Positions 12,538 to 54,600 of a stretch of 64,000 nucleotides of DNA are shown piece by piece. Every line of letters starts with the position of its first letter. Position 1 is the first letter of the stretch. Below the pieces are notes generated by a model, which had not been told where the DNA came from, searched no databases, and saw nothing but the letters and a program-made list of their open reading frames with translations. Origin of the DNA: Clavaria fumosa (taxonomy: Eukaryota; Basidiomycota; Agaricomycetes; Agaricales; Clavariaceae); the NCBI GenBank assembly GCA_951802425.1, contig OX637804.1, positions 2,356,001 through 2,420,000 of the forward strand, given 5' to 3'. Both the position numbers and the translations under genes were made by a program.

Positions 12538-13493
12538 TTAGGCAGAGGGGGGCAAGCCAGGTGATGCCTGCAAAATTCCTTTGGGCTTGTCTAGCCCAGA
12601 CTCCGCTTCCACCTCTCCATCCTCCGCCTCCACCGCCTTCTCTGATCTCTCCGCCTCCTTCTCTGCCTCTACCTCCTTCACCTTTTCCTTCACCTTCCCT
12701 GTCACCTTCACCACCATGTCCTCCACCTCCGCTTTCTCCGCCTCCGCCCTCAGAGCCTCTGCTTTCCTCTTCCTCTCCATCTTCTCTGCCACCTCCATCC
12801 TCCTCCCCCACTTCTCCAAAATCTTGCGGAGGATCCTCCGATCCTCCGCTGCGGCCTCCTTCCTCCACTCCTCTATTGCAACCACTCCCCTCAGGACCAT
12901 GCTATGCGTGGCCCGCACCAAGTTCAAACCTCCTCCTCCGGCCAGTGACCCTGCAGCACCCACATCTCCAACCTATCCTCCTCCGAGTCTGTGGACCGCT
13001 TGGTCCACATCCCCTTCGCCTTTTTCTGCTCTGGCTGCTCCGCCTCTCCACCTCTGCACTTCTGCTTCGCCCCCACACAGGCGTTGCAGGCTGTCCCCCA
13101 CCCCCCACTTGGCCACACACAGGCCATCCCCAACCTCCGGCATCGCGTGCACTCTGCGCAATCCGCCTCTGTCTCCAGTGTCAGAGACTGTTTCCTCCCT
13201 ACCCCTTGCTCCCACACCACCTCCACCACCTTCCGCTTCGCCTCCACCGCCTTCGCCCTCTCCAGCTCCTCCTGCGCACCTTATCCACTACCTCCTTCGC
13301 TTTCCGCTCCTCCTCCTCCCGCCTCCCTCGCCTTTTTCCCCCTCAACACATTGATCCTTTTTGTGAGGGCTGCGATCTCGGGGTCCTCGTCCTCTGCACA
13401 GGGTTGCATGGGGACAGCAACAAGGGGTCGTGGGGCGAGGGCAGGAGGGGCAGCTGGGCCCGGCTCTGGGCGTCGATTGCGTGTTGGACATGA
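12538..13493 (-). pseudogene. antisense accessory gene of Gypsy-1: Zn2Cys6-like cluster plus charged coiled-coil protein
   Basis: Runs opposite to Gypsy-1 pol, starting at an ATG at 13493, 231 bp inside the 3' LTR, and ending at 12538. Frames: 13493-about 13290 (basic start), an Ala/Lys/Glu-rich helical stretch, then 13247-12924 with cysteines spaced C-x2-C-x6-C-x10-C-x2-C-x6-C (CTRCRRLGMAC, then CNACVGAKQKC). That spacing is diagnostic of fungal Zn(II)2Cys6 binuclear clusters, which bind DNA. Last comes 12963-12538, a strongly charged, coiled-coil-like segment (EKMERKRKAEALRAEAEKAE). The parts lie in different frames, so the gene is either frameshifted or has introns I could not place; I call it a pseudogene on that basis. 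The plus-strand Pro/Ser frames over the same bases are shadows. Function is not established; the DNA-binding role is inferred from spacing alone. Confidence 0.6.
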
Positions 13494-13707
13494 TGAGTTT
13501 TAAAAAAGAAGAATTGCCCGTGTTAGGGGCGAGTGATGATGGTGATGAGTTAAGGAAGAAAAAAGTGGAGTGCACTGCACACAGTTGTTTTAACCCCCAC
13601 AAAAAAAATTTGGACTCTGATTGAAGTGCCACAAAACTCCGGTGCTAACTCCTTTTGGAATGCATGTGTTCACACAGAGTTTAGCCACAGGGTCTCAGGG
13701 GTTCAAC

Positions 13708-13723
13708 CCTAAAAGGGGGATAC
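13708..13723 (+). other. polypurine tract of Gypsy-1
   Basis: The run CTAAAAGGGGGATAC sits directly against the TG start of the 3' LTR. This is where plus-strand DNA synthesis would be primed. It shows that the antisense gene lies inside the element. Confidence 0.8.
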
Positions 13724-14455
13724 TGTTATGACCCCATCTGATCACATAAGCACAATCCCCACTCTGGACTCCAGCCTCCACACCAACTCCGGCCATCTCT
13801 GATCTGCCCCTCCATAACTCCGCATCCTCCACTCCGCGCCTTCTTTGGACTCTGTTCCGCCATACTTCAGACCTTTTGGACTTCATTCTAGAACCTTCTC
13901 CCTCCATCCCCTCATTCTGTTTACCATTGAGAGGATACCCTTGACCCATGGGAGTTATTTTTGTTGTTATTTCTTTGTTCCATGAAAATTGCACAAGCAC
14001 TTGTGGTGAAACTGTCCTAGTAATTTGATATGTACATTGTTTCACATTACTCCTATACTCTGTCCTTGCAGTATAAGTTCCCACCTGTATCTCCCTGCTC
14101 CTCAGTTCGAATATTAATGTCTCTTGATCCTAAATATCTCTGAGCTTTTGTCCTCATCATCCTCAATGTTCTCCATGTCATCCAACCAACTTCAAGCAAC
14201 TCCAATGGACTCCAATCAACTTCGGAGTTTGACTTTCATTCTGATTCTCTCTTGAGTATTGTTTCTGTTTGATAAATAGGGACACGTATATACATGGTGG
14301 CACAACACATACATTGAGGCCACAGTCCCATTAGTCTCCTTCTTCTCTGTTTGCTTCTCCATTTCTCTGATATCAGATGCCAATCGGACTCCAATAAAAC
14401 ATCTCCACCCCATTCCGTTAACCCCTTTTGCTACTAACCTGATAGGACCATGACA
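13724..14455 (+). mobile_element. LTR2, 3' LTR of Gypsy-1 (732 bp)
   Basis: Starts TGTTATGACC and ends CCATGACA. A full reverse-complement copy with target-site duplication lies at 22903-23650 and a partial one at 15375-15725, which fixes both ends. The LTR would supply promoter and polyadenylation signals. The 5' partner is missing, consistent with the truncated element. Confidence 0.9.
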
Positions 14456-14884
14456 AGATTGCACATTGATATGGGTATGGGGGGTTTGAACAGTGAATGC
14501 ATAGTAGGTGGGCTTGCAAGGCGCTGTGTGAGTATGGTGTTGTGGTTGTGAGGAAGCCCAGGAGGACTCCAGATGAAGACGGCAGGTTTCAGAAGTGTGC
14601 AGGGTGGTCTGTGAGGTGGTGAGAGGGTGTCAGGAGGTCCATAGATGATGAAAGAGTTGAATTGGGTAGGGAAAAATGGGTGGATCTTGACAAATTCACA
14701 CTGCAGTAAATTTGGTATTAATGCACACTTTGGCTTAAGCTTGTGACTAAGAATACTCTTGAGCCTTGAACCTATGAGATTCACACATCTGGTCTCATCT
14801 GTTGACTCAAAAATACTCTGCTTTTCATCCAAATTGTCCTCCATGCTTGCATATCATGCAGGCACAGTAATAAGTGCACTACTA
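14456..14884. other. unassigned repeat fragment
   Basis: Bases about 14570-14695 are similar to about 35595-35710: both carry GGCAGGTT..GGAAGTGTG or a close variant, then a GTAGGGAAAAATG-like end. It is a dispersed repeat of unknown class. The leftward frame at 14844-14434 is Pro/His-rich and not a recognised protein. Confidence 0.4.
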
Positions 14885-15725: not shown

Positions 15726-15741
15726 TAAATACAATATTTAT

Positions 15742-21320: not shown

Positions 21321-21334
21321 GAGGAAGAAGAACC

Positions 21335-21766: not shown

Positions 21767-21774
21767 GAAGAACC

Positions 21775-25615: not shown

Positions 25616-25630
25616 TAAAAGAGAGGGCCA

Positions 25631-26640: not shown

Positions 26641-27081
26641 AGTCTTGATGACTCGTTGGTGGAGTTTAGAAACTCCGCAGGCAAAGGCATATTTGAGGGC
26701 CATTCGGTTGGGGTGAGCACAGTATCCTGGCTCTCGAAGAAACAAGAACTGGTGACACTTTCGATGGCCAAAGCAGAATACATAGTGGTGATGCATGCAG
26801 CAAAAGAGGCGCTCTGGCTATGACAGTTCATCAGCGAAGTATTCCAACCACTCAACAAGCCGATAACGATCTGGAGCGACTCACTCCCAGCAATTGCACT
26901 TGTGAGCGACACAGACGACTCGTTCCATGCACGAACCAAGCACATCGACCTTCGCTACCAATTCATATGCATTTCATATGCTACACTGTGCAAGAAGGCA
27001 AGATCAAACTAATCTACTGCCCCACAGATGATATGGTAGCCAACACACTGACAAAGACACTACCAAGTTTGAACGTGAAAC
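26640..27081 (+). pseudogene. Copia-2 RNase H fragment
   Basis: C-terminal part of a Ty1/Copia polyprotein. Motifs: TVSWLSKKQELVTLSMAKAEY (about 26720-26790), EALWL followed by a TGA at 26820, IWSDSLPAIAL (the ADNQ position), ARTKHIDLRY and DMVANTLTKTLPS. It is interrupted at 27081 by Copia-1. The frame resumes at 33603 (KHFAHALRLHGP, stop). Only this terminal piece of Copia-2 remains on the left. Confidence 0.85.
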
Positions 27082-28298
27082 TTTCAGCAGCGCAGTTTGG
27101 AGTTCACGCGGGAGAATGCATATATTGTAAGTTCAGTAAGTGGTACAATGTCAAGAGGGAAGATACGAACCTGGAGTTCACACGGGAGAAAACGTGAGCT
27201 CCAGGTATCATGCTACGCAGGTATATGAGTCCAATAGAAGTTGTGAAGCATGAGTCAAAAAGAAAACAAAGTCTAATCTACAAGATAACAAGGTCGTGGG
27301 AGGATAACTGACACAGTGCGAGGTGCTGTAAGGATGACATGCGGTTTAGACAAGGAAACACAACAGATATCGACTATCCGGATATTTCAGGACCTAAGGC
27401 AATTACGTCCGATACAATCTGATAACAATCCAACACCGTCTGATAACATCCGAAAATATCTGATACTTATCCGACATCAGACTCTCCGGTCTCCAATTCC
27501 CCATGATGATCACAGCCCACAGGTCACACACACTGCCTACACCCCTCTATTTCATCACTCCAGCATGGTCAGTGCTCGACATACTCACTATTCCATTCCC
27601 CTTCCTCTATTTCATATACATGCTGTAAATTTCATATTGTGATCCCTTTCAACCATCCGATCATTTAAAACATTTCAAACCCCTTGCAGTACTTTGCCCA
27701 TTGTTCCTAGTACTCCTTTGCTGTACCAGCCTCACTTTCCTTCATTTTACGAGCAGTCCGGACATATGCTAGTTATTGGACATTTCATCCCTCCGAACCA
27801 CATGACTCACTTATGAATTATGGCCCTTATATGACCTTGTACACGATACCGCATTGCCTTCTGTAGCTTCCGGAGATTTCTGTAGGATCGGATTTGCTGT
27901 ACTTAGAAAAATGTACATAAGTATGTACTGGACTCTATGGAAATCCAGCTTTTTGAACGCCCACATTGTGCTGTGACCTTTAACAGGCTCATCCCTCATC
28001 ATACACATTGATCCGCTGGCCTTCATCGTCGCCGGCCCCTCGAACTCTCAATCTGAAAATCGGACTCTATCGGATCCGATACCGGATACTCCGGACAATG
28101 TATATTGTCACTCTCTGGACTTTTTGCACTCAACCTCTACACCCTCCAAGTTTCTGTCTAGTGTCTCCGTCATGTAACAAGACCCCCTGAAGAACCCGGC
28201 CGCGAACATCTATTTGCAGCCAACACCTGTACAGCCTACTACAGCACGGATCCGTCGTGGTAGACGTGGCACTACCCCGCAGGATATGCACATTGTCA
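27082..28298 (-). mobile_element. Copia-1 3' LTR, split by a solo LTR3
   Basis: 296 bp of LTR in two parts (27082-27326 and about 28248-28298) around the LTR3 insertion. It matches 32446-33597 base for base apart from transitions, many at CpG sites. Confidence 0.88.
27327..28243 (-). mobile_element. solo LTR3 inside the Copia-1 3' LTR
   Basis: Reverse copy of the Gypsy-3 LTR (46590-47489, 57796-58701), 917 bp. The flanks are GTGC (27323-27326) and GCAC (28244-28247), while the uninterrupted LTR at 32690 reads GCGC. The duplication is thus GCGC decayed at CpG in different ways on the two sides. More diverged than the two Gypsy-3 LTRs. Confidence 0.82.
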
Positions 28299-28316
28299 CT
28301 CCCACTTGCCAAGTCG

Positions 28317-31300
28317 TCATGACACAGAAACACCAATCGTGCTCCGGAATTTCTCGAAAAAGTCATGGGACAAGGCCTTCGTCAAGATGTCGGCGACCAT
28401 CTGGGTCATCGAGCAGTACCGGAATGATACCTCACCACTAGAAACCCACTTGCAAATGAAATGATGGCGTATGTCAATGTGCTTCGCGCGCGAGTGCGCA
28501 ACAGGGTTTTTCGCGAGTGCGATACATCCTTGGTTGTCGGCATGGACGACGGTAGCAGAGGATGGGGTGGAACCGAGGTCGGCAAGGAGCGTGCACAGCC
28601 AAACGGCCTCCTTGGTGGCGTTCGCTGAAGCCATGTACTCAGCCTCGACTGTGGACAAAGCGACGGTTGGTTGTTTCTTCGACAACCACGAAACCGTACC
28701 ACCAGCGACATCGAAAACGAAGCCGGCGATTGAGTGTCGGTCATCGGGGTCCTGCACCCAGTCCGAGTCGGTCCACCCGACGAGATCGACACCGTCGTTT
28801 TTGCCACCTAACATCAGTCCATAATTTACTGTACCGTTGAGATAACGAAGGATCCTCTTCAAAGCAACAAGATGTGTTTTTCCAGGGTTGGCTCCAAATT
28901 GCGCACAGACATTAGTCGCATACTGAATGTCTGGACAGGTATGAGTCGCATAAAGGACGCCTCCCAGACACTCTAGGTAGCCAAATCCCTGCGAAAAATT
29001 GTCATAGGCAGCGCGGTCTGTGTCGGAGATTGGACTGTCAGTACTAGTTAATCGTTCCTTGACAACCACAGGCGTCGTGACAGGCGTGGAAGCATCCATT
29101 TTGTATCGTGAGAGAAGTGCCTGAATGTACGACGTCTGGTCCAATCGGATCGTGTGTGCCATGCAGTTGCGTCGGATGCAGATCCCCAAGATATGTTTGA
29201 GCTTGCCTAAATCGGTAATCTGAAATGCCTTCCCCAACTCCGTCTTAAACCATTTCACATCACGGACATCCGTCGCTGTGATGGCCATGTCATCAACATA
29301 GACCAAAACCAAAATTTTCACCGTGCCCTTTTCCTTCTTGATATAAAGACAGTCGTCTGCCGTACTGCTGGTGAAACCCGGTCGCTTCATCATCTTGCCC
29401 AGTTTGACTTTCCATTGTCTTCCCGCTTGTTTTAGGCCGTAAAGCAGCCTCAAGAGTCGCCAGACTCGTTTGTCCTTTTCATTTGTGCGTGTGCCGTCCG
29501 GTGGTTCGAGATAAATTTCCTCACTCAGGTCTCCTCGCAGGTATGCTCCGACAACGTCGACCTGGTGCACCTCCCAATCTTCTCGTGCGGCCATGGAGAG
29601 AAGCACTCGGAGCGTCGTAAGACGTGCGACAGATGCGAAGGTTGCGTCGAAGTCCTGACCTGGAACCTGTGAGTACCCCTTTGCTACGATCCTTGCCTTA
29701 TATCTAACAACCTTCCCATTGCCATCCCTCTTCGTTTGAAAGACGAAGCGGCTCCCAATCGTCTTGCGGCCGTTTGGAACGTGCGGGACCCACTCGAAGG
29801 TACCGGAAGAGCGAAGCTGGTCGAGTTCTACCTTAACGGCCTTCTCCCACTCGTTTGCCTGCTCTGTGTGCATCGCCTCGCGGTAAGTACGTGGCTCACC
29901 ATTCGTTGCAACGAAGGCCTGATGTCCACTCCCACTAATAGCCTCTTCAACATCTTCAGGAGTTGCTTCCTCACCGAAGCAGACAGGTGGACGTCGCACT
30001 CGTTTCGTCGACTCGCGCGCCCGTGTGGTAACTTGCCTGGGCTCAACAGGTTCGTCTCCTGCTCCCACTACTTCTGCTATCCCTGATCCCCCACCATCCA
30101 TCGTAGGGATTAATTCGCTCGTGTCGCCCACAACATCGGGTTCGGCCACACCCACGTTATCCCCTGATGGTCGCGGGTCTATGCCATCGATCACGGCCTC
30201 ATCTGTGGGAGAAGTATCTTCAACAAAACGGACATCACGAGAGGTAATCAGCCCCCTCGTCTCGATGTCCTCCAAACGGTAACCTTTCGTCTCATCAGCC
30301 CACCAACCTAGCAATTGACACTTCACTGATGTTGCCTCAAGCTTACCCCCTCGAATTTTCTTTGGAATGTTGGCATAGGCGATAGAACCGAAGATCCGCA
30401 GGTGAGAGACGTTGGGCTTTCGTCCAGTCCAAGCCTCATGTGGAACCATCCCAGGCAAAGCGGACATCAGTGAGAGGTTGCGGATATGCACTGCATACAT
30501 CAAAGCCTCTCCCCAATATTGTAAGTCCATTCCAGATGAATGCAACATACATCTAACCATCTCGAAGTAGGTTGCTATTGTTCACTCGGCAATTCCGTTC
30601 TGTTCCGGTCCATACAGCACTGTCGTTTCGTGTATTATCCCATTCCACTTGCAGAGGTCTTCCACCTTATCATTAACGAGCTTGGTTCCATTGTCGGTGC
30701 GTAACCTCTTCAGTTTCAGCCCGGACTGTCTCTCTAACATTGCTATAATCTCTTTCAGTGCTGTGGGGGCTTCATCTTTGCTTTTCAGAAGGCGGGTGAT
30801 GCCATATTGTGAGTTTGCCTTGACTACAATCAATGCGTACCGCATGCCTGACCAGGTTTCCACAGCCATCGGTCCTGTTAAGTCTGCGACGACGAGGCCC
30901 ATTTGCTTGTACTTGGTCTCGCTTGTCTTCGGTAGTGGTAATCGGTGAGACTTGCCAATCGCGCATCCACCACACACCCGGTCATGATCGCTGGATGATA
31001 TCGTAAGTCCGTTTACCATTCCTTTCCTCGATAGCTCACGAATCCCCTCTAGGTGGAGATGTCCCATTCTTCGGTGCCAAACACGCATGCTCGCGCCCGA
31101 TGTCGCCCCAAAGGCGGCTTGGGTCCTCGCGTGCGTGCACTCGACTCTGTAAAGTCCTTCCCTCAACTTCCCATGCATCAACTCATCGTTGCCAAGCATG
31201 ACCACAAGCCCCTCATCTGTACTCCGGTATCCTGCTCCATTCCGTTGGAGTGCGCCCAAACTAACGAGATTCATAGCCAGCTTCGGTGCATGCATTACCT

Positions 31301-32441
31301 GGTGCAGGGTGACCGTCCGATACCCGTCTGGGAGCTTGACCCTCAGACTAACGCTCCCGTGGCCCTCGACCGGTATGTCCCTTGCGTCTCCAACAGATAT
31401 AGTTTGATTAGAGGATGCAGTGTAGGACATGAAGAACGATCGATCGCAAAACATGTGGGCAGTCGCGCCGCAATCGAGTATCACTCCGGCCTCAGCCTGG
31501 AACCGGGCAGCGAGGTAAACCTTTCCAACCTCGCGCGCGCCGAGCTCTCCATCACCAATGGCCGTATTGGCCGATCCGCTTGGTGCGTCTTTGTTCTTTT
31601 CATCTCTATCGCGACGTGGGCATTCATTGGCCCAATGTCCTTTTCCTTTGCAGTATCGGCACTCGTCGTCCGGCTGGGGGCCTCGCCCAGGTGTCGAGTT
31701 TTGGTTCCAGCCTCGTCCGGATCCGCCGCGACCACCACCGCGACCTCGTCTTCCCCTCGCGGTTGCCTGCAGCGCCGTTTGGCCTCCGCCCTTCTCCTGG
31801 GTACGTCGATTCGCTTCGGCCTGCAATCTGGCACTGACACCGTCTGGCGTAAGTCTATCGCCGTGGATTAACTGTACCGTAATAATCTCCCATGATGGTG
31901 TCTCCGGGAGTGAGAGAATCAACGCCTGCGACATCTGGAGGTCGTCGATGGTTCCTCCAGCCTGGATTATACGCTGCCGGAGGTTCAACATTGCGGCGAT
32001 GTGATCTTCCATAGATGTTCTGTCCACATACTTCTTCGTGAATAGTTCTTTAAGATGGTAGTAGGCATTCGTTGCCTGTCGATTCGTCTGATGGATCTGT
32101 TTCCAGGTGTCCCACATTTCGACTGCGGTCTTACAGTCCGAAACGTGCGGCCACTGGGACTCGTCGGTCGATCCGTACATCAAGCCCTGTGCGGCTTCGT
32201 CCTTGGCCTCCCATTCTTCTATGAGAGTCTGAACTCGTGCGATCTCTTCTGCGCTCGGGGCCGGTCCTCCAGGGGCTGCGACTGGGCTAGCTGGGCGGGT
32301 TTCCTTCCCCTTCACTAGTGCCCACAGGTACTTCGACTGTAGTGCGGAGCGCATGTGTATAGCCCAAGTAGCATAGTTCTGTCCATTCAGTTTCGCGAAC
32401 CGGAGGGAGTCCATATCTGAAAAGCCCTGAGCGGGTCTCAT
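28317..32441 (-). pseudogene. Copia-1 gag-pol polyprotein, one nonsense codon
   Basis: Single frame of 1375 codons with one internal TGA at 30584-30582, otherwise open. Domains in order: gag (from MRPAQGFSD), zinc knuckle CRYCKGKGHWANEC (about 31670-31625), aspartic protease DCGATAHMF (about 31475), GAG-pre-integrase (VWHRRMGHLHLEGI), integrase core (DLTGP, RTDNGT, then EQNGIAE just before the stop), reverse transcriptase (YVDDM near 29300) and RNase H (WTDSDW, STVEAEY, HADNQ, KHIDIRHHF). The frame continues directly after the TGA, which replaces an expected Arg codon (CGA to TGA fits CpG decay). Length and domain order match complete Copia elements, so this copy could have been active recently. 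Confidence 0.95.
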
Positions 32442-32445
32442 AATC
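32433..32445 (-). other. Copia-1 primer-binding site overlapping the start codon
   Basis: Immediately after the 5' LTR the minus strand reads GATTATGAGACCCGC. The ATG inside it opens the polyprotein (M-R-P). The same sequence follows the Copia-3 5' LTR. It is complementary to the anticodon arm of a methionine tRNA (CTCATAA loop), as expected for half-tRNA priming. Confidence 0.6.
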
Positions 32446-40526: not shown

Positions 40527-43500
40527 GCGTCTCAACATGAAGATTCTGTCACTCCCCAGAGCTCCCCATTCGCGATAATAAAGCTTTGTGATGACAGATC
40601 CAATTGGCCCGATTATGAAATGAGAGCCAAGACCGCTATGGGAGCCAAGGGACTGATCAGACACATTGAAGGGACTGCACGGCGACCCTTATCTTTCGAC
40701 ATTGAAAATGGATGACCGGTCACGGAGCCTGGAAAACCCGCCACGCGACTTGAGATTCAGGAGCTTGAACGTGCAATGGACGAGTATGAGCAAAAGGAAT
40801 ACGTGGCTCGACACATAATGCTTACCTCCGTATCACCGTGCCTCTCTACGATACTCCGGGCAAACTCCTCAGCTGCACAGATGTGGCAGCAAATAGTTGT
40901 GGACACTACGAAGAAAAGTTGCATCCACCAAGTTGACATGTGCTGATGTCTTCACGAACTTCGCTGTCCCGAAGGAGGGGATGTGCGTGCGCACCTTAAC
41001 GCTATGACAGATCTGCATAACAAGCTTGAGGGGATTGGCGCACCAGTCAGTGATGAAGACTTTGTGATGATGATACACATCAGCTTACCGCTAAGCTATC
41101 GGCCGCTACTGCAATCCGTTCTCCACGCCGCTGACATGAACGAAAAAGCTGTGGATCCAACCTACCTGATCAGAATCGTCCTTGAGGAGAATCAGCAATG
41201 GCAGACAACCCACAGATTATCAAAATCCAGCCAGGCAGCTTTCCAGACGAACAAAAATCGTCGCAGGGGCAAAGGGAACAAGTCTTCAGGCGAGGCGAAG
41301 CTGTGCGAGAACTGCAAACACACCAACCATAATATCAAGGACTGCTTTGCCAAGGGAGGACCCAAGGAGGGCCAACGGCCTCCCTGGGCGAAGAATAAAC
41401 AATCAGGAGTGAATGCTGCAGCGACGAAGGGGAAGAAAGAAGAGACGGACGAATGGGTTGCATTTACCTGTTCTTCTACCCATACAGATGTCGCTGCCAA
41501 GGCAACTCACCAGTGCTCCCATGTCACTGCGTTCCTTGATAGTGGTGCAACCGCTCACTTTACCCCTTTGAGAGAAAAATTGGTTAACTTCCAGAATACG
41601 TCGCCCAGGCCAGTTACCGCAGCCAACAGAGGGGAATTCAACGGCGTCGGATGCGGTGACATGCCCTTGAAAGTTATAAACGGCTCAAAAACGACCAAGC
41701 TACTCCTTAAAAATGTTATTTACTCACCCAAACTCGCCTTCACATTGATATCCATCGGACATCTTGACGATTCCGGTTGTACGGCCACGTTTGGACAGGG
41801 TCACTGCATCATCAGACATTCTGATAGAAGAGAGCTAGCCTGAGTAAAGAAAACAAATGGTCTATACCAACTCAACGGCACCATGCACAAACACGGCCCC
41901 TTACACACCAACGTAGCCACACAGCGGCTAAGTATAATGGAAGCTCACTGCACACTAGGTCACATCAATGTCGAGACCATAAAACATGCAATAAAAACGG
42001 GTAAAATTACCGGGATAATGCTCGACGATGACTCTGAACTTGAGTTTTGTGACGCGTGTGTGCAGGCGGAGCCTCACCATCACCCTTTCCCGGACCAAGC
42101 CCAAAATCGTGCGCAAAAGTTCGGCGACCACATTCACAAAGACCTATGGGGACCTGCGAAGGTTGAGTCGGTTTTTAGGAGCCGGTACACAGTCGATTTC
42201 ATCGACTGTGCAACCCGCTGGACTCACATCGCATTCCTTCACTGTAAAAACGAGGCTTTTCAAGCCTATCGTGACTTTGAGAAATGTCTTGAGACTCAAG
42301 ACGGTGTAAGGATAAAAATCCTCCGGTCTGATCATGGCCGTGAGTTTCTCAATGATAAATTCAGTCAGCACTTAGCAGACAAGGGAACTGTTCGTGAACT
42401 CACTGTCCACGACACGCACAAACAAGTTGGTGTCGCCAAACGTTGGAATCGCACAAAAGCCGAACTAGCCCGTGCGATGCTAATAGACTCGAAGCTCCCA
42501 AGATTTCTATGGGCCAAAGCTATGAACCACGCAGCCTGGATAAAGAACCGCTCACCTACACGCACGCTCAACAACGGCACACCGTACGAAGCTCGTTACG
42601 GCAAGAAACCAGACATGTCGTGACTAGTGCCATTCGGCATGCGTGCCTGGGCTAAAATCCCAGATGCTGGTAAGCTAGAACCTCGCGCGATGCTCGGGCA
42701 CTTCGTCGGCTTCGACAGCACAAGTACTGGCTATCGAATTTATTGTCCTGACAAATGACAAGTCAGAATTGAGTGCGAAGTCACATTTGACCGTTCCAGG
42801 CATCCACAAACGGTCGAAATCCCCGAAGAGTCAGAGATTGTGGGGGAGAGGCGAAAAGACATTCTCCAAGACCCTCCGGAGGACCGTCCTTCATTGCCCA
42901 GCACCGACAAAAGCAAAAGCGACCAAGATGACACAAGAAGCAACGATCACCCATCAGACAGTGACGAGAGCGACTCGGACGACACTCACAGTCGTTCCAA
43001 TAGCTGCAGATCCCCGTCAACAATGCCTGATTACCCCCAGCATGCCGAACACGATGAATTCGGTCAACCTCACCACAAACGCCATGAACCTGGTTTTTAC
43101 AGGAAATTAGCCAGCCACCACGCCCACGCTTCAGTGTACGCACCTGAAAACTCTTCAGACGACTCTGACAACTATTTTCCCCTCTTTGCATTGACTGCAG
43201 GCGCTGTAGGATCCGAACCGCGCACCCTCGACGAAGCGCTCTTGAGAGATGATGCCAGTTGATGGAAAGAAGCCTGGGACGTCGAACTGAAGCAACTGCA
43301 GCATCTACGCACCTGGAAGCTCGTCCCGAGGCCAATCAACAAACCAGTCATCCCCTACAGCCACGTTTTCAAAATCAAACTTGGCTCCAACGGCGAGATC
43401 CTAAGATATAAGGTCAGGCTCGTCGCAGGCGGACACAAGCAAGTAAAGGGACTTAACTTCAACGAGACCTTCGCCGCAGCAGCGAAGATCGCCTCGATCC

Positions 43501-44752
43501 GTGCCGTCCTCGCCAATGCGGCCTTGCTAGACTGGGAAATCCATCAGATAGACGTAGTGGGTGTGTACCTAAATGCTGAGATCAACGAGGAAGTCTTCAT
43601 GGAAGCCCCTCCTGGTGTGCTTGGCCTGAATGATAAAGGCAAGGTCTGCAAATTGCTGAAGGGTCTCTATGGACTGAGACAGTCTGGAAGGATGTGGCAT
43701 GAGAAGATGACTGGCACTTTCCTAGACTTGGGTTTCACACTGTCACGCCTCGACCACTCGGTGTTTACAAAAGCTGTGCTGGCCAAACAACTCATGTCAC
43801 GGTTTCGACTGACGACATGGTCATCGCCGCGAGCTCTCGTGCTGCTATAGTTCAATTCAAAAATGCTTTTTCCAAACACTTTGAGATAACCAACCAAGGA
43901 GAAGTGTCCTGGCTCCTAGGTTTTGAAGTCAAACAGGATCGGAAGGCCAGAACTATCGCTATCAACCAAAAGGCATACCTGACAGCCATGGCTGAGAAAT
44001 TCAGAGTTATGAATGCGAAACCAGCATATACTTCCATGGAGCCTGGCGCAGTCTTTTCCAAGGAGCAATGCCCCGCCGAGGCTATCTGGGTGCCTTACCA
44101 AGAGGCTTGCGGCAGCATTCTGTGGCCAGCGGTGATCTCACGTCCCGATGTCCAATTTGCGGTTGGAATTTTGGCGCAGTTCACGCAAAATCCAGCACAT
44201 GTCCATTGGAATGCAATTAAGCGGGTTATAAAATACTTATACACGACTCGCAACCTCTGGCTAACCTTCGGCAGCCGCCCCGACAAACCTGAGGTATACG
44301 CCGACACGGACTGGGCCTCGCAACCTCACCGACACTCAATTTCGGCGTACGCTGTGACGCTAGGTGTGGGCGTCGTCTCCTGGTCCTCAAAGAAGCAATC
44401 CATAGTCGCCCTGTCTAGTGCTGAGGCCGAGTACATCGCAGCGACGCACGCCGCGAAAGAGGTCCTGTGGCTGCGAGCTTTCCTAGACGAACTAGGGAGA
44501 CCGAGTGCTGGCCCGACGAGTCTACGAACCGACAACCAGTCAGCGATCGCCATCGCGAAAGATCCCAAGTTCCATGTGAGAACGAAGCACATAGATGCAC
44601 AATATCACTTCATCAGAGATCTGGTGCGCACAGGCAAGGTTCAAATCATGTACGTATCGACCAATGACAACCTCGCTGACATGCTCACCAAGGCCCTACC
44701 ACGCGCGAAGTTTGAGACTGCGAGGGCGTCGATTGGAGTGCTTCCTGCTTGA
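40518..44752 (+). pseudogene. Copia-3 gag-pol polyprotein, broken
   Basis: Gag from 40518 (stop at 40713-40715, further frames to 41840), zinc knuckle CENCKHTNHNIKDC (about 41310), protease LDSGATAHFTP (about 41540), GAG-pre-integrase (TLGHINVETIK, 41955), integrase core with DLWGP, RSDHGREF and KQVGVAKRWNR (Glu of the usual GVAER replaced by Lys) and a stop at 42621. The reverse transcriptase follows at 43370-43850 (KVRLVAGGHKQV, LYGLRQSGR), with the catalytic region read as VSTDDM after a frameshift near 43790. RNase H is at 44290-44750 (YADTDW, SSAEAEY, RTDNQSAIAIAKD), ending at 44752. Stops also at 41841 and 42756, so it cannot make a full polyprotein. Confidence 0.93.
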
Positions 44753-46589: not shown

Positions 46590-47489
46590 TGTAGTAGGCT
46601 GTACAGGTGTTGGCTGCAAATAGATGTTCGCGGCCGGGTTCTTCAGGGGGTCTTATTACACAATGGGTACACTAGACAGAACCTTGGAGGATGTAGAGGT
46701 TGAGTGCAAAAGGTTCAGAGAGTGAAAATATATGTTGTCCGGAGTATCCGGTATCGGATCCGATAGAGTCCGATGTTTGGATCGAAGGTTTGAGGGGCCG
46801 GCGACGATGAAGGCCAGCGGATCAATAGGTACGACGAAGGGTGAGCTTGCTAAAAATCACAGCACAATGTGGGCATTCAAAAAGCTGGATTACCATAGAA
46901 CCTGGTACATACTTAAGTACATCTTCGTAAGCACAGCAAATCCGGTTCTATGGAAGTTTCCAGAAGCTACAGAAAGTAATGCGGTATTGTGTGGAAGGTC
47001 ATATAGAGGTCATGGATCATAGAGGAGTTATGCGGTTCAGAGGAATGAAGTGTCTGATGATCGGTGTACATCCGGACCGCTCGTAAAATGAAGGAGAGTG
47101 AGACTGGTACAGCAAAGGGGTACTAGGAACAATGGGCAAAGCACTGCAAAGGGTTTGAAACGTTTCAATGATCGGATGGTTGAAAGGTATCACAATATGA
47201 AATTTACAGCATGTATATGAAATAGGGGAATGGAATAGTGAGTATGTCGAGCGCTGACCATGCTGGAGTGATGAAATAGAGGGGTGTAGGCGGTGTGTGT
47301 GACCTGCGGGCTGTGATCGTCATGGGGGATTGGAGACCGGAGAGTCCGATGTCAGATAAGTATCGGTCGTTATCGGACGGTGTCGGATTGTTATTGGATT
47401 GTATCGGACGCAATTGCCTTGGATCCCGAAATATCCGGATGGTCGGTATCTGTCATGTTTCTATGTTTAAACCGCATATTATCCTTACA
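46590..47489 (-). mobile_element. LTR3, 3' LTR of Gypsy-3 (900 bp)
   Basis: On the plus strand begins TGTAGTAGGCTGTAC and ends TTATCCTTACA. Nearly identical to 57796-58701, with scattered transitions and small indels. The adjacent inner sequence, read on the minus strand, is CCTGGGAGAA, a short polypurine tract. Confidence 0.92.
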
Positions 47490-47649
47490 TTCTCCCAGGG
47501 GCTGAAAATGCAACCGCCCTCGGTTGCAACCAAACAAGGCCAAATAATCGTTTGTTGATCATGAAGTACACGTTGTGTGGGTGCACATAGGTCCAAACAC
47601 GCACTTGTGTGTTCTCCAATAACAGCAACACATCAACCATCCAAAAAAA

Positions 47650-50600
47650 ATGGAAAACTTCGACACTCTCGTTTTCCGGAACGCGGCCCAGGCGATGACG
47701 GAGGCACGGGCCATGGCGCCGGGTGAGGAATTGCCGGAGCGGGGGCAGGACAGTGAGTATGCGGAGTGGGTGCAGATGTATGGGGGTGATGCGGTACGTG
47801 ATGTTTCTTTCTTTCTTTTTCACTTTGCACTGACAAGTTTTCAGGATGATTTCCTTGCCGGCTACATTGCCACAATCGACGATGACGTGGAGGTGGACGA
47901 AGGACTCGTCCTCGTCGCGAGAAGGCTCAAAAAGTGGCGAAGGCTCCGTGGGGATGAATGGACTGCCGAGCGGACGAGGAAAGAGGAGGAGGCCGAAGCC
48001 GAACAGGAATGTGCGGATGAGGAGAGGGCGGCCGCCGAGAGGGCCGCAGCGGAGGCGGAGGCGGAGGAGAGGCGACGAGAGCTGCCGAGAAGAGGGCGCG
48101 CCTCATTGTGATCAGTGACAGCGACGACAACGGCGGGGCGGCGGTGGCAGCAACAGCAATGACAGGAGCGGATGAGCCCGCGGCGGAGGCGGCAGCAACA
48201 ACTACGGTATCGCAGGACATTGCGGAGCTGCATGCGGACGAGGTGGCGACTGCGGAGGTGGAGACAGGAGAGGTGCGGGTGGCAACGGTAGAGGATCGGG
48301 ATGGTCATCGGACCGTGTGGGGAACCGACGGGGTGACGCCCGTTGGTGTTATCGAAGCGGCAGCCTGTCGGGCTTGTGACAGCAAAACCCCTTTGGTGTG
48401 CAAGGGTAGAGCGAAGGGTCTGTTCAGTTTCTAATGCTAGTCGATAGTCCTGGCGGACTTGTCTCTCGATATGCAGGGAACACTCCTGCAGTAGTCGAAG
48501 TGTCTGGTAATAAGTCTGGGGATTGGCTCGGAGTAGTCGGTCCTTTATCCAAGTCCTTGTATACCTTTGGTAATACTCGAACCGATAGAGGTTCTGCTCA
48601 ATCGATGGGTGGCTGGTGAAACTCTCAGGAGGGATGACTTGCGACCTTAAAGGTGGGAAGACGAATCCTTCCAGCGCGAAGCTCTCAGCAGCGACGTTTG
48701 CTGTCAGACTTAGTTGAGGTCTCTCAAGTAAGTGTATAGACGAAAAGATCGAAGCTAGGGTACATGTGGGTTGGTCTCAGGTCTTATATACTCTAGCTAT
48801 GGGCTGTACGTGATGTATGAGTCATTGATTAAATATCGGAATCTGATAGATGATCAGGAAAGCTGTGCGCTTGCACTGGAATGATGAGTCCGAGCAGTGT
48901 CGATCTTTGTTGGGATCCTTGTGATGATGATGTCATCTGCGATCAGATAGGGTCCCCGCTTCGATGCATTATATCATGTCGGCTGTATCTGATCCTGTTG
49001 GGGATATGATTGGAGGGTTAGCTGATCTGTGATCGAGCTGTTCTGAGTCATGATCACTTGATCGATCGGTGTGATGCAGTGATCGAGTGAAACTGATCTT
49101 TGATCAGAGATCTTCTTAGGGGTGATCGTGTCTGGTGGATAGGGGTCTGCCTAATCGAGGTCGAGATCAGTCTGTGACGGTTATTGGATAAAAGGACGGT
49201 CTTCCTCCTTTCGCCGTCCCTTCAGAGTCTGCCTGCTATGTGCTTCCAAGGCCACCACCTTGTCGAGTTCTTCCACAGCTCCTCCCTCTTTGCTCCTCGT
49301 ACTGGAATCAAGCTCTCTTGCGATACCTTCCACTGGTGGGTTCAACTCGTCCCTGCCGATGCGGACCTCTACTGGGTCCTCGACCGATGCTTCGCCTGTG
49401 GGGATCCCTCCCACCTTGTCAAGGACTGCTCCTTGACCCAAGGTCCTTACCGACGTATCTGTGACCTTCTCGAGGACCCTCATGGTGAGTTAGCCGAGCT
49501 GCTTCTCTCTGTCTCCAGTAAGTCTGATTCTTTATAGATTGGGACTGGGCTCCTCCCCGCCCTCCCTCGCCAACTGTTTGGGCCACCACCCCTTGGGGTG
49601 ACCAAGGTACTTGGTACCAAGGTGGGCAGGATTGGGCTGAGATTGGTTCTGGTCCTGTACATCCGGCTTACCGTCCCCAGGTCCAGATCCCCAACCTCTG
49701 GATACCCCGTTGGTGGCGCCTCCTCCGTCGCCCTCCCTTCCTACCGTTGACCTCCCCCCCGCCTATTCCCCCCTCCCGTCTCCTACTCTGGACGACGGAG
49801 GTTCTCTCGGCGCTGTGCGAGATCTGCGAGAGGCTGCCCTGGAGGCGGGAATCTGGGATGGTCAGTTTGCCTCCCATCCCTTGAGGGTAGCTCTCGGGTT
49901 CGTGGGTGAGTCTGATTTCTCAGACTCTTCAGATGAGTCGTGGGAAGAGGAGTCTTGGGGGTCTGAGTACGGCACCTCGGGCTCCTCCCTTGATGAAGAG
50001 GGGTCTTGGCTTTCTTTCGTGTAGATAAGTATTGTACTTATCTTGCGATAAAATATATAGTTGGGGTTTAGCCCCTTGTTCACCTGATTTGCATGGTGTT
50101 CCTTAAGTTAAAGGATTGAAATTTGCTGGCCTGGTAGTACGGACGACGCTTTCATGACACAGCCGTGAGTGCGGTGGCCGTGGGGGGGCAGCAGACAGTG
50201 GAGGTGCCCCTCACGTTGGAGCCTCGGGTGGGCGGGCGGATGACGGCGACTCCGGTGTGGGTGGAGATCGCGAGGCGGAAGGCGGCGGAGTGGGGGCGAG
50301 GGAGGAGAAGCAGGGCGGGGGCTGATATAAAATCCCGGGCTGCGCGGCAGCCTGGAGATAAGGTAAGTGGTCGATTAAAATGTGTGAAGGTTTTAGGTGT
50401 CTGATCTAATGAATAGGAACACGATCCGGGATGTGAGGAGTGCGCCTGGAAGCGGCGCGCGTGTTATGGAGTGGAGGGGATAGCGTGCCGGTGGTGCCGG
50501 ACGTACAAGGTGTCATGCAGCTTATCAGCTGTGCGAGGTAAGTAATATTCTTTTTATTTCCGTGCTGAGACAAATGATAAGTATGTTTCAGGAGTGAAAA

Positions 50601-50974
50601 CAGAAAAGGCAGTGGTGTCCGGCACCGGAGGTAAGTCAAGGGGGTATCGGATCCGTGTTGGCTAACAGAGCGGAGCAGGTCCGAAGGCGACGGAGGCGAC
50701 CGGAGGCAAGAGGCCGAGGCAAGGTGCGACATGGGTACCGGTTCGCAAGGAGACGATGACGGAGGAGGAGGAGGAGGAGGATGAAATTGAGGATGACAGC
50801 GTGGAGCTGGTGGAGGAGCCGTCAGTGAAGAGGAGGAAGGCGGAGGCGGGTCCTAGCCGGAAGGGAAAGGAGCGGGAGACGGCGCCAGGGGTGTCCGGAA
50901 AGGAGGCGCTGGAGAGAGCGCTCCAGATGATGGAGAGGGGGGCGGAGCTTCTCCGGATGCTCCTTCTCGGCTAG
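47650..50974 (+). CDS. antisense accessory gene of Gypsy-3: Zn2Cys6-like cluster protein, split by a solo LTR1
   Basis: Lies antisense to Gypsy-3 between integrase and 3' LTR, starting at an ATG at 47650, 160 bp inside the LTR (context CAAAAAAAATGG). Exon 1 47650-47793; intron 47794-47844 (GT-AG, CTGAC branch motif); then a Glu/Ala/Arg-rich coiled coil, a frame change near 48100 before LIVISDSDD, and an Ala/Glu-rich stretch to 48365. LTR1 (48366-50159) interrupts in frame: removing it and one CAGCC rejoins EAAA to VSAVAVGG. Further introns are 50363-50416, 50538-50591 and 50631-50678. The exon 50417-50537 carries CEECAWKRRACYGVEGIACR and on to WCRTYKVSC, spacing C-x2-C-x6-C-x7-C-x2-C-x6-C, identical to Zn(II)2Cys6 clusters. 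An acidic run, a basic KRRK motif and a C-terminal helix follow (stop 50972-50974). Likely nuclear; target unknown. This copy is now broken by the LTR1 insertion and probably by a frameshift. Confidence 0.68.
49187..49196 (+). promoter_or_regulatory. TATA-like box of the LTR1 antisense gene, copy A
   Basis: GGATAAAAGG about 45 bp before the ATG at 49238. The same box is at 62009-62018 in copy B. Confidence 0.45.
49238..50024 (+). CDS. LTR1 antisense zinc-knuckle/acidic-tail gene, copy A
   Basis: Encoded on the strand opposite to LTR1 transcription. The first frame (49238-49537) has HWWVQLVP and the zinc knuckle CFACGDPSHLVKDC with C-x2-C-x4-H-x4-C spacing, a nucleic-acid-binding motif typical of Gag. 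A middle block (about 49550-49730) reads WATTPWGDQGTWYQGGQDWA in another frame. The last frame (to 50024) is Pro-rich then highly acidic, with GESDFSDSSDESWEEESWGS and the end GSWLSFV. The joins between frames are unresolved: a GTAAGT...TATAG stretch after the knuckle is only about 21 bp, too short for a normal intron. A hairpin AGATAAGT/ACTTATCT spans the stop, and GATAAAATA follows. Function unknown; could be a decoy or regulator of Gag or RNA, as inference only. Confidence 0.5.
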
Positions 50975-50983
50975 TCATCCGCT

Positions 50984-51579
50984 TAGTGTTGCCGCAGCTA
51001 GACTAGTCACGAGCCAGCTAGACCAGCTGCGGCTAGTGACTACTCTAGCTGGTCTCAATTTGTCTTAGCTGTAGTCATAGCTGCAGCTAGTGAGTTTAGC
51101 TGACTATAGTCATGGCTTAGCTGCCAACTCTTATATTATAATTATGTGTTCATTCTCACTGCTGTAATGCCCTGGTGGCCATGACACTGCAGTACTGCTA
51201 CTTTGACTAATAGTGCAATGCCACTACTATCATCAGTTACAACCCCTGTCACTGTCAGTTCATAAGCTGGTTCAACAAGTCTAAGAATGATAAAGTCAGC
51301 ACAGCAGGGATAAAAAGGTGAGTTACAGCATGGCTAACAAGATAATAGAGCATTTAATGGTGAAATATTTGAAAGATAAAGTGCTATTCTCAACTTATTT
51401 CACTTGAAACTTTACATCAAACCTAGCCATAGCTTAGCTGCAGCTATCAGCTATGGAAATATCAATAGCCATAGTCATAGCTGCTTTGTAGCCATAGCTG
51501 ATTGCCAGCTAGGCTACAGCTACAATCAGCTATGGCTATGGCTATTAGTCAGCTACTAGTCATAGCTGTGGCAACACTA
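50984..51579. mobile_element. 596-bp hAT-type element in Gypsy-3
   Basis: Terminal inverted repeats TAGTGTTGCCGCAGCTA and TAGTGTTGCCACAGCTA, with a perfect 8-bp duplication CATCCGCT (50976-50983 and 51580-51587). Packed with AGCTA/TAGCT subterminal motifs, as in many hAT MITEs. Sits just past the antisense gene stop, between the two convergent genes. No transposase. Confidence 0.93.
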
Positions 51580-51683
51580 CATCCGCTAAATACTACACCA
51601 AAATTATTTATTTATTTATTTGGTGGGCGGTTGAAATCAATGTAAATTATGGAGGAATGAAGGATTGGATGGAAACAAAATGC

Positions 51684-54600
51684 TTAATGGCGAGGCCGAA
51701 GGTTCCGGGTTGCTCCGAAGCGTTGCGGAGGGGTTTCCGGAGTGTCGTCGTCAGCGGCTTCTTTATTGGATTCATCAGATAGTTCAGCAGCTTGGGTTTT
51801 CCCATCTTCGGTGTCAATAGAGTTATGTGACGTCTCGTGTGTTTGATTGTGAGGGACATCCTCATTTATCTCCGTCATTTGGTCGATGATAGATGTGACC
51901 GGAATAGATGTTTGCGATCGCGGATAGTAGGGAATGATGCGGAAAGCTGCATAGTGGATCTTTGAGATGGCACCGTCGAGTTCCGAAGGAATATATGCAC
52001 CGTATTGAGTTCGGCGGACAACGATCATCGGTCCGAAGAATCGTGGTTTTGTCTTCCGATTTAGTTCCATTTCTACGGCCGAATTACGGATCAATACCAG
52101 CGATCCGGGTTTGAAATCGTAGTCGATGATGGAGTTCTGGTGTGCGTCGATGAACTGCTTGACGGATTGTTTTCGGGCAGCGAGTACTTTATTGGCGATC
52201 GTCGCTAGATCTTCTTCCCGTTTTTGTAGTTGGCGGGCACAGAGGGCTATTAGTTCCGGAGTGGTCATCGGGGCGTCGGCGGTCGGAATTAGATATGTTG
52301 CTTCGGATATGTCGAAAGGGAAAAGCGGTTCAACACCATGTGCGATGTAAAATGGAGAGTGACCAGTGGATCGTTGGATTGTGGTTCGCTCTGCCCAAAT
52401 GACTGAGGGTAAAACGTCCAGCCATTTCGATTCGTCTCCGTCTGCTGCTTTGATTAACGACTCGCAGACCAACCGGTGGGCACGTTCGATGACGCTGTTA
52501 GCGCAGGAATTATATCCGGAGATACGGATGTGACAGATTCCGTACCATTTCTTGAGGAAATCGAGGGCCTTGATAAATGGGGTGCCATTATCCGTAATGA
52601 TCTCTTCTACTGCTCCCCATCGGCACAGTATGTCTTCAAATATGAAGGTTCCGAGAAGTCGGGCGGTCTCGTTTCGTAGCGGTCTTGCTTCCGGATACGC
52701 GGATAATGAACATCGGGCGTGGACAAGAAGTCGGAAACCGCAAGTTCTGGGTAGGAACATGGTGTCAATGTGCGCTCAACGGAAAAGACTGGCCGGGGTG
52801 GCGACCATCGGTGGAATAAAAATCTTCCAGATCTGTCGGGTCTGACATTGGTGACAAGTACAGACAAACCATTTGATGTCTTGATCCAACATCGGCCACC
52901 AGAACCGATCTAAGAGACGTGTCTGGATAACGTAAACGCCTTTGTGGCCAAGTGAATCGTGTGCCTCTATGATAATTGCAAGCCGTTTGTGGTCCGGAGG
53001 CACTACCTGGTGGCATCTGTTAGGTCGGCAATGCCATAGCTTGTCATCAAGGATAAAGAAGTCGGATGCGGAGCGGACTAATTGTCGGAATTGGTTTGCA
53101 TCGATGCCGGGTGGACGGATCGGGTTTCGAAGGAAAGATTCTATTTTGTGGATCTGGTCTTCTCTTTTCTTGGCTGCGTCTGACCGGGGGATAAGAATGG
53201 CAGAGGATTTATTGGGGGCTGGTGGATCATCGGATGGTACCGTCGAGTTGAGTAGCATCGATCCTGTGGGAAGTTGGGAGCCAGTATGAGTGAGACCGGA
53301 GGGGGGTGCATCCGATGGATAGTGAGATTTTGGTGTTCGATTCATGTATTCCATAGCGAACACGTAGCTCCGATCGATCCACTCTTCATGATCTTCGGAC
53401 TCAGTGTCTTCCTCACCATCTCCGGCACATCGGCGTGATAATCCATCGGCTCCAGTATGTTTATCTGCAGGGATGTGAACAAGGTTGAAATCGAAAAGTA
53501 GTATACTGGCAATCCATTGATTCATGGCAGCGTTTGGCTGAATGTCCGGGTTGTTTAGCATTCCCTTAATACATTTGGCGTCCATTTCGACGGTGAATTT
53601 CAGAAGGCCGACAAGGTAAATCCGGTACGATCAAAGGGCGCGAAACAGTCCGTATAACTCAATTTTTGCTTGAGAGTATCGGGCCTCGCGTTCGTTCCAG
53701 GTTATCAATCCGAACCTAGATGGGTACCGGATTCCATCTTCTCCTGTTTGAAATAGCGCAAAGCCGACAGCGATGTTGGACGAGTCAATGGCCATAATGA
53801 TGGGCCATCCAGAGCGGTAATTGATCGGTCAAATGGCGGATGAGTTGACTATTGCATCTTTAAGTCGGTCCATCGAATTTTGCTCTTCTTCTTCGAACCT
53901 GAATGGAACGTCCTTGCGAGTTAGACGGACGAGAGGTTGGGCAAGTACGGCATAGTTTTTAATGAATATCCGGAGCAGTCCGCAAACACCTAAAAATGAT
54001 CGGACATCTGTGAGTGTTTCGCACGGAGGCCAGTCTCGGATGCGTTGGACATTGGAAGCGTCTGGAACTCGCCCTTCATAGGTGCACGTGTGTCCAGTAA
54101 CGATTGTTTCGGGGGTGCAAATTGTCGTTTTCTTGCCATTAAAGGTTCCTCCGACTATCTTGACTTGTTGGAGCACCCGGTTGACGTTATTCAAATGCTC
54201 CCAAACGAACCGCCGCATTAGCGGATTCTCCGGGATCGTCTCGTAAGTGCCATCCGGAAGCTCGTATCGGGTTTCCAGGCCCTTGATCGCTACATCGTCT
54301 ACGAATGGGATGGTTACATGCAGAATTTCGTCTTGTAGTATATGCGTGACGTCTCCATGCATAATCTGTGTTGCGTTGGTGTATCCCATGGGGACGCAAG
54401 TGAGTCGTTTGGCTCCGAGAGGGGTTTGAAAGGTGGTAAGGTCTCGGCTTCGCTCGTCCAGAGACCGCTGATTGAAGGAGACGAAAAGGTCGAGTGATCC
54501 ATAGCATCTGCGTCCGGCGAATGATTCCGCAAAAACCTCCATTATCGGGGGAACCGCGGAGTCGCTGATAGTGACTTTGTTCAACAGCTGGAGGTTATGT

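Follow-up and report, generated by a model that had tools for sequence, protein, structure and literature searches.

Why would Ty3/Gypsy retrotransposons keep an extra gene on the strand opposite to their own coding sequence? The question is raised by a window of 64,000 nucleotides from the fungus Clavaria fumosa (contig OX637804.1, positions 2,356,001 to 2,420,000; C11:2356001-2420000 in our survey of the genome, 48.76 Mb in 17 contigs). Two Ty3/Gypsy elements of this window, here called element 1 and element 2, each carry an antisense gene, A1 and A2 respectively, that lies between the integrase and the polypurine tract and runs tail-to-tail with pol. What is established directly is that such genes are present family-wide, in one place and one orientation, that they are constrained at the protein level, that they have introns on the antisense strand, and that their elements contain an excess of the short motif CGGA/TCCG. 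Judged from the sequence, it is close to an even call that the genes encode coiled-coil, zinc-cluster-like proteins that bind CGG-core sites in their own elements in trans, most likely keeping these elements transcribable.

Element 1, on the plus strand, is chromovirus-like and degraded. At the integrase end of its pol, SH3_Tf2-1 scores above the Pfam cut-off, and Chromo at the pol C-terminus falls just under it (E 3e-05, 24.3 bits versus a cut-off of 25.1). The parts of the element are the following.

9000-12112, plus strand: pol of element 1 (5' limit approximate), with an RNase H piece at 10234-10809 and the last open reading frame (ORF) at 11495-12112
12538-13491, minus strand: antisense gene A1, broken copy (ATG at 13491, stop at 12538, cysteine cluster at about 13160-13050)
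13711-13723, plus strand: polypurine tract AAAAGGGGGATAC, alike in the eight copies compared
13724-14455, plus strand: 3' long terminal repeat (LTR), TGTTATGACCCC...TGACA, directly after the polypurine tract

The A1 copy in the window is dead, as it is spread over three frames with a stop between. Its product has charged helical stretches and a cysteine cluster with the spacing C-x2-C-x6-C-x10-C-x2-C-x6-C. Upstream of the element 1 pol pieces, positions 6409-8900 hold an array of units of about 35 bp with very little CpG (4.4 per kb).

Element 2 is a minus-strand copy whose two LTRs are 97% identical. It is a Ty3/Gypsy element according to the order of its ORFs, in which reverse transcriptase (RT) and RNase H precede integrase in pol, and to its paired LTRs; the RVT_1 score of 25.6 bits is below the cut-off of 29.6, and the integrase was recognised by eye, without a Pfam match. 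No target-site duplication was found, the flanks CGCGG and CTGCA being different. The antisense gene A2 spans 47650-50974 on the plus strand, between integrase and polypurine tract.

46590-47489, minus strand: 3' LTR of element 2, TGTAAGG...ACTACA on the minus strand
47650-47793, plus strand: A2 exon 1, 48 aa, MENFDTL...
47794-47844, plus strand: A2 intron 1, GTACGT...CTGAC...CAG
47845-50362, plus strand: A2 exon 2, interrupted by a solo LTR, with a frame change before the solo LTR in the window copy
50363-50416, plus strand: A2 intron 2, GTAAGT...TAG
50417-50537, plus strand: A2 exon 3, with the cysteine cluster CEECAWKRRACYGVEGIACRWCRTYKVSC; a homologous exon was found in other copies
50538-50591, 50592-50630 and 50631-50678, plus strand: A2 intron 3, exon 4 and intron 4, read by eye
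50679-50974, plus strand: A2 exon 5, C-terminal part, acidic and basic, with a KRPR stretch and the stop codon
51684-57877, minus strand: gag, protease, RT, RNase H and integrase ORFs of element 2
57796-58701, minus strand: 5' LTR of element 2

This copy is dead as well, due to a 1.79-kb solo LTR insertion and the frame change. Like A1, the A2 product combines charged helical stretches with a cysteine cluster, which is spaced C-x2-C-x6-C-x7-C-x2-C-x6-C. The original prediction, made from the window alone, had placed the start codons 160-231 bp inside the 3' LTR. Counted from the LTR, the A2 ATG (47650) lies 161 bp inside and the A1 ATG (13491) 233 bp inside, the latter replacing the earlier figure of 231.

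The antisense arrangement in the two lineages, which the same prediction had described for the window, is found throughout both families. For A1, a 118-aa query piece gave at least 150 genome matches (the best 150 of 193 candidates scored). RTs were located with the RVT_1 profile (best 150 of 1667 candidates scored, all RT families together), and 51 of these 150 have A1 antisense and downstream within 6 kb. Counted from the gene, the A1 matches within 6 kb of an RT comprise 55 that are antisense-downstream, 2 antisense-upstream, 5 same-strand downstream and none same-strand upstream; within 10 kb, the four classes hold 58, 5, 6 and 1. A2 exon 1 has 144 genome matches. When element 2's own RT was used as the query (119 copies scored of 1622 candidates), A2 exon 1 was antisense-downstream within 9 kb in 97 of the 119 copies, at a distance of 4.3-4.5 kb in most cases; conversely, such a link to an element 2 RT exists for 101 of the 144 A2 loci. 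Within 15 kb of an RT, 116 cases are antisense-downstream, with 5, 3 and 5 in the other three classes. The 22 RTs and 43 A2 loci that lack a partner may be truncated or diverged. A recent spread would fit the identical score, 728.1 bits, of 33 among the 119 RT copies; one of this group, L061, has an open pol of 1287 aa and A2 exons free of stops (exons 4 and 5 read by eye). The recurrence is thus beyond chance, as had been proposed, and the numbers of matches together with their fixed place relative to RT rule out a single capture, a chance ORF or host DNA inserted by accident.

Do these ORFs function as genes? For A1, the ratio of nonsynonymous to synonymous differences (pN/pS) was determined for two groups: 22 loci from the 30 best among the 150 matches, each with a frame from MSN of more than 900 nt, and 12 of 20 more distant loci that passed a similar filter. 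In the gene frame it is 0.43 and 0.46 within the groups and 0.52 between them, and the median ratio of the corresponding rates (dN/dS) between groups is 0.40 (264 pairs). Relatives outside the genome comprise 12 and 5 database proteins, one labelled 'hypothetical protein'. In an alignment of 24 A1 proteins, 12 of which are database proteins from elsewhere, C120, C123, C130, C141 and C144 are invariant and C151 is nearly so. For A2 exon 2, pN/pS is 0.43, and 0.44 between distant groups (nine loci, one of which has a stop). Since the third positions of frame -1 coincide with those of the gene frame and the ratios of the two frames are close, pN/pS alone does not settle the strand and was not used as the sole test. 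The antisense strand is favoured by the start and stop in place, by the conserved cysteines of A1 and by the introns of A2. Intron 1 could be parsed in all of 21 loci from the 144 matches (12 distant, 8 of the 30 best, and L061); it has 51 nt in 20 of them and 56 nt in L061, and its interior varies while GT, a CTRAN branch-like site and AG are kept. Intron 2, found with a strict pattern in 9 of the 21 loci, the same nine as used for exon 2, and with a looser pattern in L061, measures 47, 54 or 55 nt. Intron lengths that differ by numbers not divisible by three, between exons of phase 0, would make sense if the antisense RNA is spliced. Such introns could outlast retrotransposition because splicing of the sense RNA would leave them in place. 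That A1 and A2 are real, spliced genes present family-wide is hence indicated by constraint on the protein, by the conservation of the cysteines and by GT-AG introns on the antisense strand whose length varies.

The same features bear on the idea that it is the antisense transcript that matters, through double-stranded RNA or interference with sense transcription, the ORF being a by-product. Overlapping transcripts are possible from tail-to-tail genes, and Ty1 is restrained by antisense RNAs according to the relevant part of a review. A role of the RNA would leave the protein-level constraint, the conserved cysteines and the introns that fit the reading frame without a reason, and we consider it very improbable.

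Two further observations concern A1-like genes. The C-terminal sequence of A1, ESGLKEPEGxLQASPGSPPSA, is well conserved in all groups and in database proteins, and it lies outside the zinc cluster. A Gypsy lineage represented by C5:31733-37700 and its relatives has two antisense A1-like matches about 2.5 kb apart, which may be two genes or one split gene.

To which class do the cysteine clusters belong? Zn2Cys6 proteins have the spacing C-x2-C-x6-C-x(5-12)-C-x2-C-x(6-8)-C, which is found in A1 (x10) and A2 (x7). Of the earlier description as Zn2Cys6 cluster plus charged helices, the six-cysteine spacing and the helices stand for both proteins; membership of Pfam family PF00172 (Zn_clus) does not, as the best score is 16.1 bits versus a cut-off of 21. 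On homology of the A1 and A2 clusters, a profile comparison points neither way (probability 5.6, P 0.0068, 31 columns). A search for relatives of solved structure gave just six weak matches, to helical stretches, with a best E of 0.6.

A third antisense gene of this kind, A4, belongs to the lineage of L112, where it lies downstream of the RT at C4:4465828; this lineage, like the motif excess, goes beyond the original prediction. A4 encodes a long charged helix, and its cysteine cluster follows a short GT-AG intron (splice read by eye). Two pieces of the gene have 43 and 55 genome matches. All 23 matches of the second piece within 6 kb of an RT are antisense-downstream, at 21 of the 150 RTs; the distance range of 6-10 kb adds 4 same-strand downstream matches and 1 same-strand upstream. 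A distant A4-like family with 42-45% identity and open frames of 415-439 aa (C3:530136, C1:5157765, C6:3598695, C7:502878, C3:582324) is perhaps a further antisense gene lineage.

The solo LTR nested in A2 stems from yet another lineage, which was predicted to carry an antisense zinc-knuckle (ZK) gene in its LTR.

48366-50154, plus strand: ZK-lineage solo LTR of 1.79 kb, inserted in A2 exon 2, with the 5-bp duplication CAGCC
49178-49537, plus strand: zinc-knuckle ORF (CFACGDPSHLVKDC) in this LTR

The genome bears out this description, with at least 150 matches to the ORF (best 150 of 188 candidates scored). On the same strand, 24 pairs of matches lie 5-9.5 kb from each other, many of them at about 7.40 or 6.48 kb, versus 3 opposite-strand pairs, and RT matches enclosed by a ZK pair are antisense to ZK in 10 out of 10 cases. 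Within 6 kb of the 150 RTs, a ZK match is antisense at 12 and on the same strand at 2. For ZK exon 1 (19 pieces considered, 16 with the whole stretch, 14 distinct), pN/pS within each of two groups is 0.13 and 0.22, and the comparison of the groups gives 0.63; in frame -1 the values are 0.15, 0.32 and 0.67. The ZK gene differs in kind from A1 and A2, being located inside both LTRs and coding for a different protein, and is not to be pooled with them. A1, A4 and ZK together are linked to 83 of the 150 RTs, and 67 have none by these queries. According to pol identities, A1 and A4 are sisters (67%), ZK and a further Gypsy lineage, L115, are 41-53% identical to A1 and A4, and A2 is 23-26% identical to all others (23% to A1 in the RNase H region). 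The window has one more solo LTR of the ZK lineage, at 61188-62982; GGTGC occurs at either end, and the LTR separates the gag ORF of another Gypsy element from a protease-like ORF of that element.

What might the proteins recognise? The triplet CGG is the classic Zn2Cys6 half-site. We compared pol sequences (L114 for A1, L061 for A2, L112 for A4, L113 for ZK) with synonymous shuffles in which the protein and the codon usage were fixed, counting 4-mers with both strands merged (up to 136 words). CGGA/TCCG is the top 4-mer in the pol of A1 (87 versus 52.6 expected, z 6.8, rank 1 of 136), A2 (109 versus 66.1, z 6.8) and A4 (98 versus 58.2, z 8.4), and in the gag of element 2 (41 versus 25.7, z 4.2). 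Under a stricter null that also fixed codon-junction dinucleotides within one count (25 randomisations; first 2,400 nt where the sequence is longer), the counts in A1, A2 and A4 pol are 74 versus 46.2, 62 versus 41.8 and 98 versus 61.2, above all 25 randomisations in each case. When the three pols are divided into strand-by-phase classes, 17 of 18 show an excess, 15 of them with z of at least 2. LTRs were compared with dinucleotide shuffles, and 5-mers were counted with no word chosen beforehand. CGGAG is the top 5-mer of a 724-bp A1 LTR (17 versus 1.9 expected); three A1 LTRs contain 13-17 copies versus about 2 expected, and a decayed fourth, in which the word ranks second, 5 versus 0.6. In three A2 LTRs, CGGA occurs 18, 23 and 7 times (6.2, 7.5 and 1.9 expected), and the top 5-mer in two of them is CGGAT or TCGGA (one LTR cut at an assumed edge). 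Helical phasing of the sites in A1 pol (direct spacing of 11 and 21 bp) was considered and not used, as there are just 5 and 6 pairs.

The excess is visible in the window as a difference in density.

46590-58701, no strand: CGGA/TCCG-rich tract, 19-28 per kb in the LTRs, antisense gene, gag and pol of element 2

The flanks have 3.8-4.4 per kb, the AT-rich spacer at 50975-51683 has 2.8, and the nested ZK LTR, which is a built-in control, has 5.0. In the CpG-poor element 1, the density is 9.6-16 per kb and 4.4 in the spacer; a copia element of the window has 10.9. Per CpG, element 1 has 0.33-0.70 CGGA/TCCG and the copia element 0.17.

The flavour of the sites differs between lineages in part. 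CGGAG is in excess in A1 pol (44 versus 19.0) and A4 pol (38 versus 17.6), not in A2 pol (17 versus 14.3), where CCGGA (45 versus 20.4) and CGGAT (38 versus 18.3) lead.

Other DNA of the same genome lacks the CGGA/TCCG excess: the pol of the ZK lineage (18 versus 19.7, rank 77 of 136), the pol of L115 (rank 86 of 136), the pol and the gag-integrase ORF of a copia element, another copia (ranks 108 and 135 of 136), and the Gypsy gag at 60144-61187, from an element that may or may not have a zinc gene (rank 121 of 134). The same holds for four host-like ORFs of the window (ranks 104, 92, 7 and 112, the rank of 7 being due to 4 occurrences versus 2.1) and for the LTRs of ZK (9 versus 15.8) and copia (0 versus 0.9). 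The zinc gene and the motif excess thus coincide in two separate branches, with lineages nearer to one of these branches lacking the motif. Since the pols of L115 and ZK are closer to A1 and A4 than that of A2 is, shared ancestry alone does not explain the pattern. Could the excess instead be mutational or imposed by the host, for example by loss of CpG outside CGGA in methylated elements, with an unrelated role for the zinc gene? Old copies have lost CpG (the LTR of element 1 has 13.7 per kb), decay that depends on sequence context could spare CGGA, and the one-strand bias of A1 pol is odd for a plain double-stranded site. This explanation is rather improbable in view of the control DNA and of the strong excess in L061 and L112, which have open pol frames over the stretches covered and belong to lineages with many copies of equal or nearly equal score.

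The Ty1/copia control at 27078-32687 has 246-bp LTRs, and its gag-to-integrase frame, 30582-32447, and the frame for the rest of pol, 28317-30581, abut at a stop codon. A second copia-like ORF set lies on the plus strand at 40947-44752. CGCGA/TCGCG is the top 5-mer versus synonymous shuffles in the L115 pol (L115:1-1083, 11 versus 2.7) and in the copia ORF 30582-32447 (12 versus 3.9), and is perhaps another element-specific word.

How would such a system work? The antisense gene would be transcribed from a promoter in or beside the 3' LTR, and the protein would enter the nucleus by means of its basic stretches. There, it would bind short CGG-core sites over its own LTRs, gag and pol, with a preference for CGGA, probably strongest as CGGAG in A1 and A4 and as CCGGA and CGGAT in A2 pol. 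Binding in trans might mark or open the copies through an effect on chromatin, and the benefit would be continued transcription despite silencing, by activation, anti-silencing or both, as for the VANC proteins of Arabidopsis. The self-recognising DNA-binding factor is the best reading of the data, and it is possibly an anti-silencing factor.

A more conventional role would be that of a regulator confined to the promoter, of the type of HTLV-1 HBZ or a classic Zn2Cys6 activator, for which sites in the LTR tune sense transcription and the motif in gag and pol is incidental. The dense LTR sites, with CGGAG as the top 5-mer of an A1 LTR, and the start of the antisense gene next to the 3' LTR would suit it. 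However, a promoter factor does not need CGGA as the top 4-mer of three pols, in an excess that survives fixed dinucleotides, and we regard this role as unlikely. Sites throughout the coding DNA fit better with action along the entire body of the element or on its complementary DNA (cDNA). The protein could thus also act on the cDNA or the pre-integration complex, by coating, nuclear import or choice of the integration site, with the dispersed sites as a grip along the cDNA. The occurrence of sites in LTRs and coding DNA, near strand symmetry in A2 pol (52/57), A4 pol (53/45) and element 2 gag (19/22), which fits double-stranded DNA, and the basic stretches of the proteins agree with this, and an import function has been suggested for plant antisense ORFs in the pertinent part of PMC7264820. 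In contrast, A1 pol is asymmetric (26/61), and the chromodomain-like stretch that ends the element 1 pol could already do the targeting. A cDNA role is improbable in our estimate, and the present observations do not separate it from a role at chromatin.

Taken further, the sequence data would suggest that at least two distant branches evolved self-recognition, with an antisense zinc-cluster DNA-binding protein and about two hundred CGG-core sites in the LTRs and synonymous positions of each element, in partly lineage-specific flavours, so that each family is kept unsilenced by its own factor. We put this forward as a possibility that is somewhat doubtful. Several findings weigh against the best reading given above, a self-recognising factor that binds CGG-core sites. 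The complementary frame -1 gives pN/pS values nearly equal to those of the gene frame for A1 (0.51, 0.59, 0.68) and in a near tie for A2 exon 2 (0.46-0.47). The Pfam score of the clusters is below the cut-off, and A4 has only five of the six cysteine positions (x6, x10, x2, x6). The excess in A1 pol is mostly on one strand (TCCG 61 versus 33.1, CGGA 26 versus 19.7), and the flavours overlap (CGGAG 15 versus 6.5 in element 2 gag, CCGGA 44 versus 23.9 in A4). The motif tests cover one pol per lineage in one genome, and the lack of a matched zinc gene in L115 rests on two queries, with the 3' region unread. Finally, VANC sites are located in non-coding tandem repeats, whereas the CGGA sites are dispersed through LTR, gag and pol.

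As a class, antisense ORFs at this place are known, so that the designation as undescribed has to be given up. The parts of PMC7264820 and PMC11963269 that deal with plant Ty3/Gypsy elements describe such ORFs between pol and 3' LTR (aORF-3R) in Grande (gene23), RIRE2, Retand (TRP28) and PvRetro13. TRP28 is predicted to bind DNA, the PvRetro13 product has an SMC domain and the Grande product is nuclear. According to these sections, it is not known what antisense extra genes do in LTR retrotransposons, and the 2025 Retand study says the same of TRP28 (PMC11963269). The fungal genes resemble the plant aORF-3R, described there as ancient, in orientation, in the position between pol and 3' LTR, and in being present in most copies of a family, which for A2 means 97 of 119. 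They differ in the fungal host, in the zinc-cluster-like and coiled-coil protein, in the several introns of A2 and in the coupled CGGA excess, a coupling of which the plant sections cited make no mention. Among fungi, the Boty element of Botrytis cinerea has an antisense gene, brtn, which PMC7264820 credits to Zhao 2011, and which, compared by this citation alone, is likewise an antisense extra gene in a Ty3/Gypsy element. A 2010 survey of fungal Gypsy elements mentions, in one of its figure legends, an extra ORF without known function, the section at hand giving no orientation (PMC2864245). The TET/JBP genes of fungal DNA transposons are also transposon-borne and plausibly directed at DNA methylation; they encode an enzyme in DNA transposons and not an antisense DNA-binding protein (PMC12730594, as excerpted). 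A Zn2Cys6 antisense gene or a motif coupling in LTR elements was not found in searches of an open-licence collection, which leaves out most subscription journals.

Similarity to Gal4-type fungal Zn2Cys6 regulators is seen in the six-cysteine spacing of A1 and A2 and in the CGG core of the motif. Unlike these regulators, the proteins fall below the Pfam cut-off, have five cysteines in the case of A4, contain long charged helices and are borne by retrotransposons. HBZ is a basic leucine zipper (bZIP) factor of a retrovirus, whereas A1 and A2 are cysteine-cluster proteins. The likeness to HBZ, a nuclear protein from an antisense gene on the 3' LTR side, lies in the position of the gene (PMC7264820 and PMC11963269, in the sections cited above).

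The closest parallel in mode of action would be VANC of the Arabidopsis VANDAL elements. According to the relevant sections of PMC5735166 and PMC10398659, VANC proteins are encoded by the element, bind short motifs that have accumulated in its own copies and cause loss of methylation (PMC5735166), and the motif varies between related elements. In the fungal case, by contrast, an LTR retrotransposon carries the gene in antisense orientation, and the motif is scattered over LTR and coding DNA instead of forming non-coding tandem repeats. The class of genes being known already, the coupling of CGGA to the lineages with a zinc gene is what is new, and it would be a real step if binding holds. Families with an antisense gene that are rich in one short word hint at elements that recognise their own copies. 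If the protein does bind CGGA, it would be the LTR retrotransposon counterpart of VANC, and the retention of the antisense gene would be explained. Synonymous sites of a transposon coding sequence would then be shaped by the needs of a DNA-binding protein, and the pair of signs, an antisense cysteine-cluster gene and a motif excess, could be used to seek such systems in other genomes.

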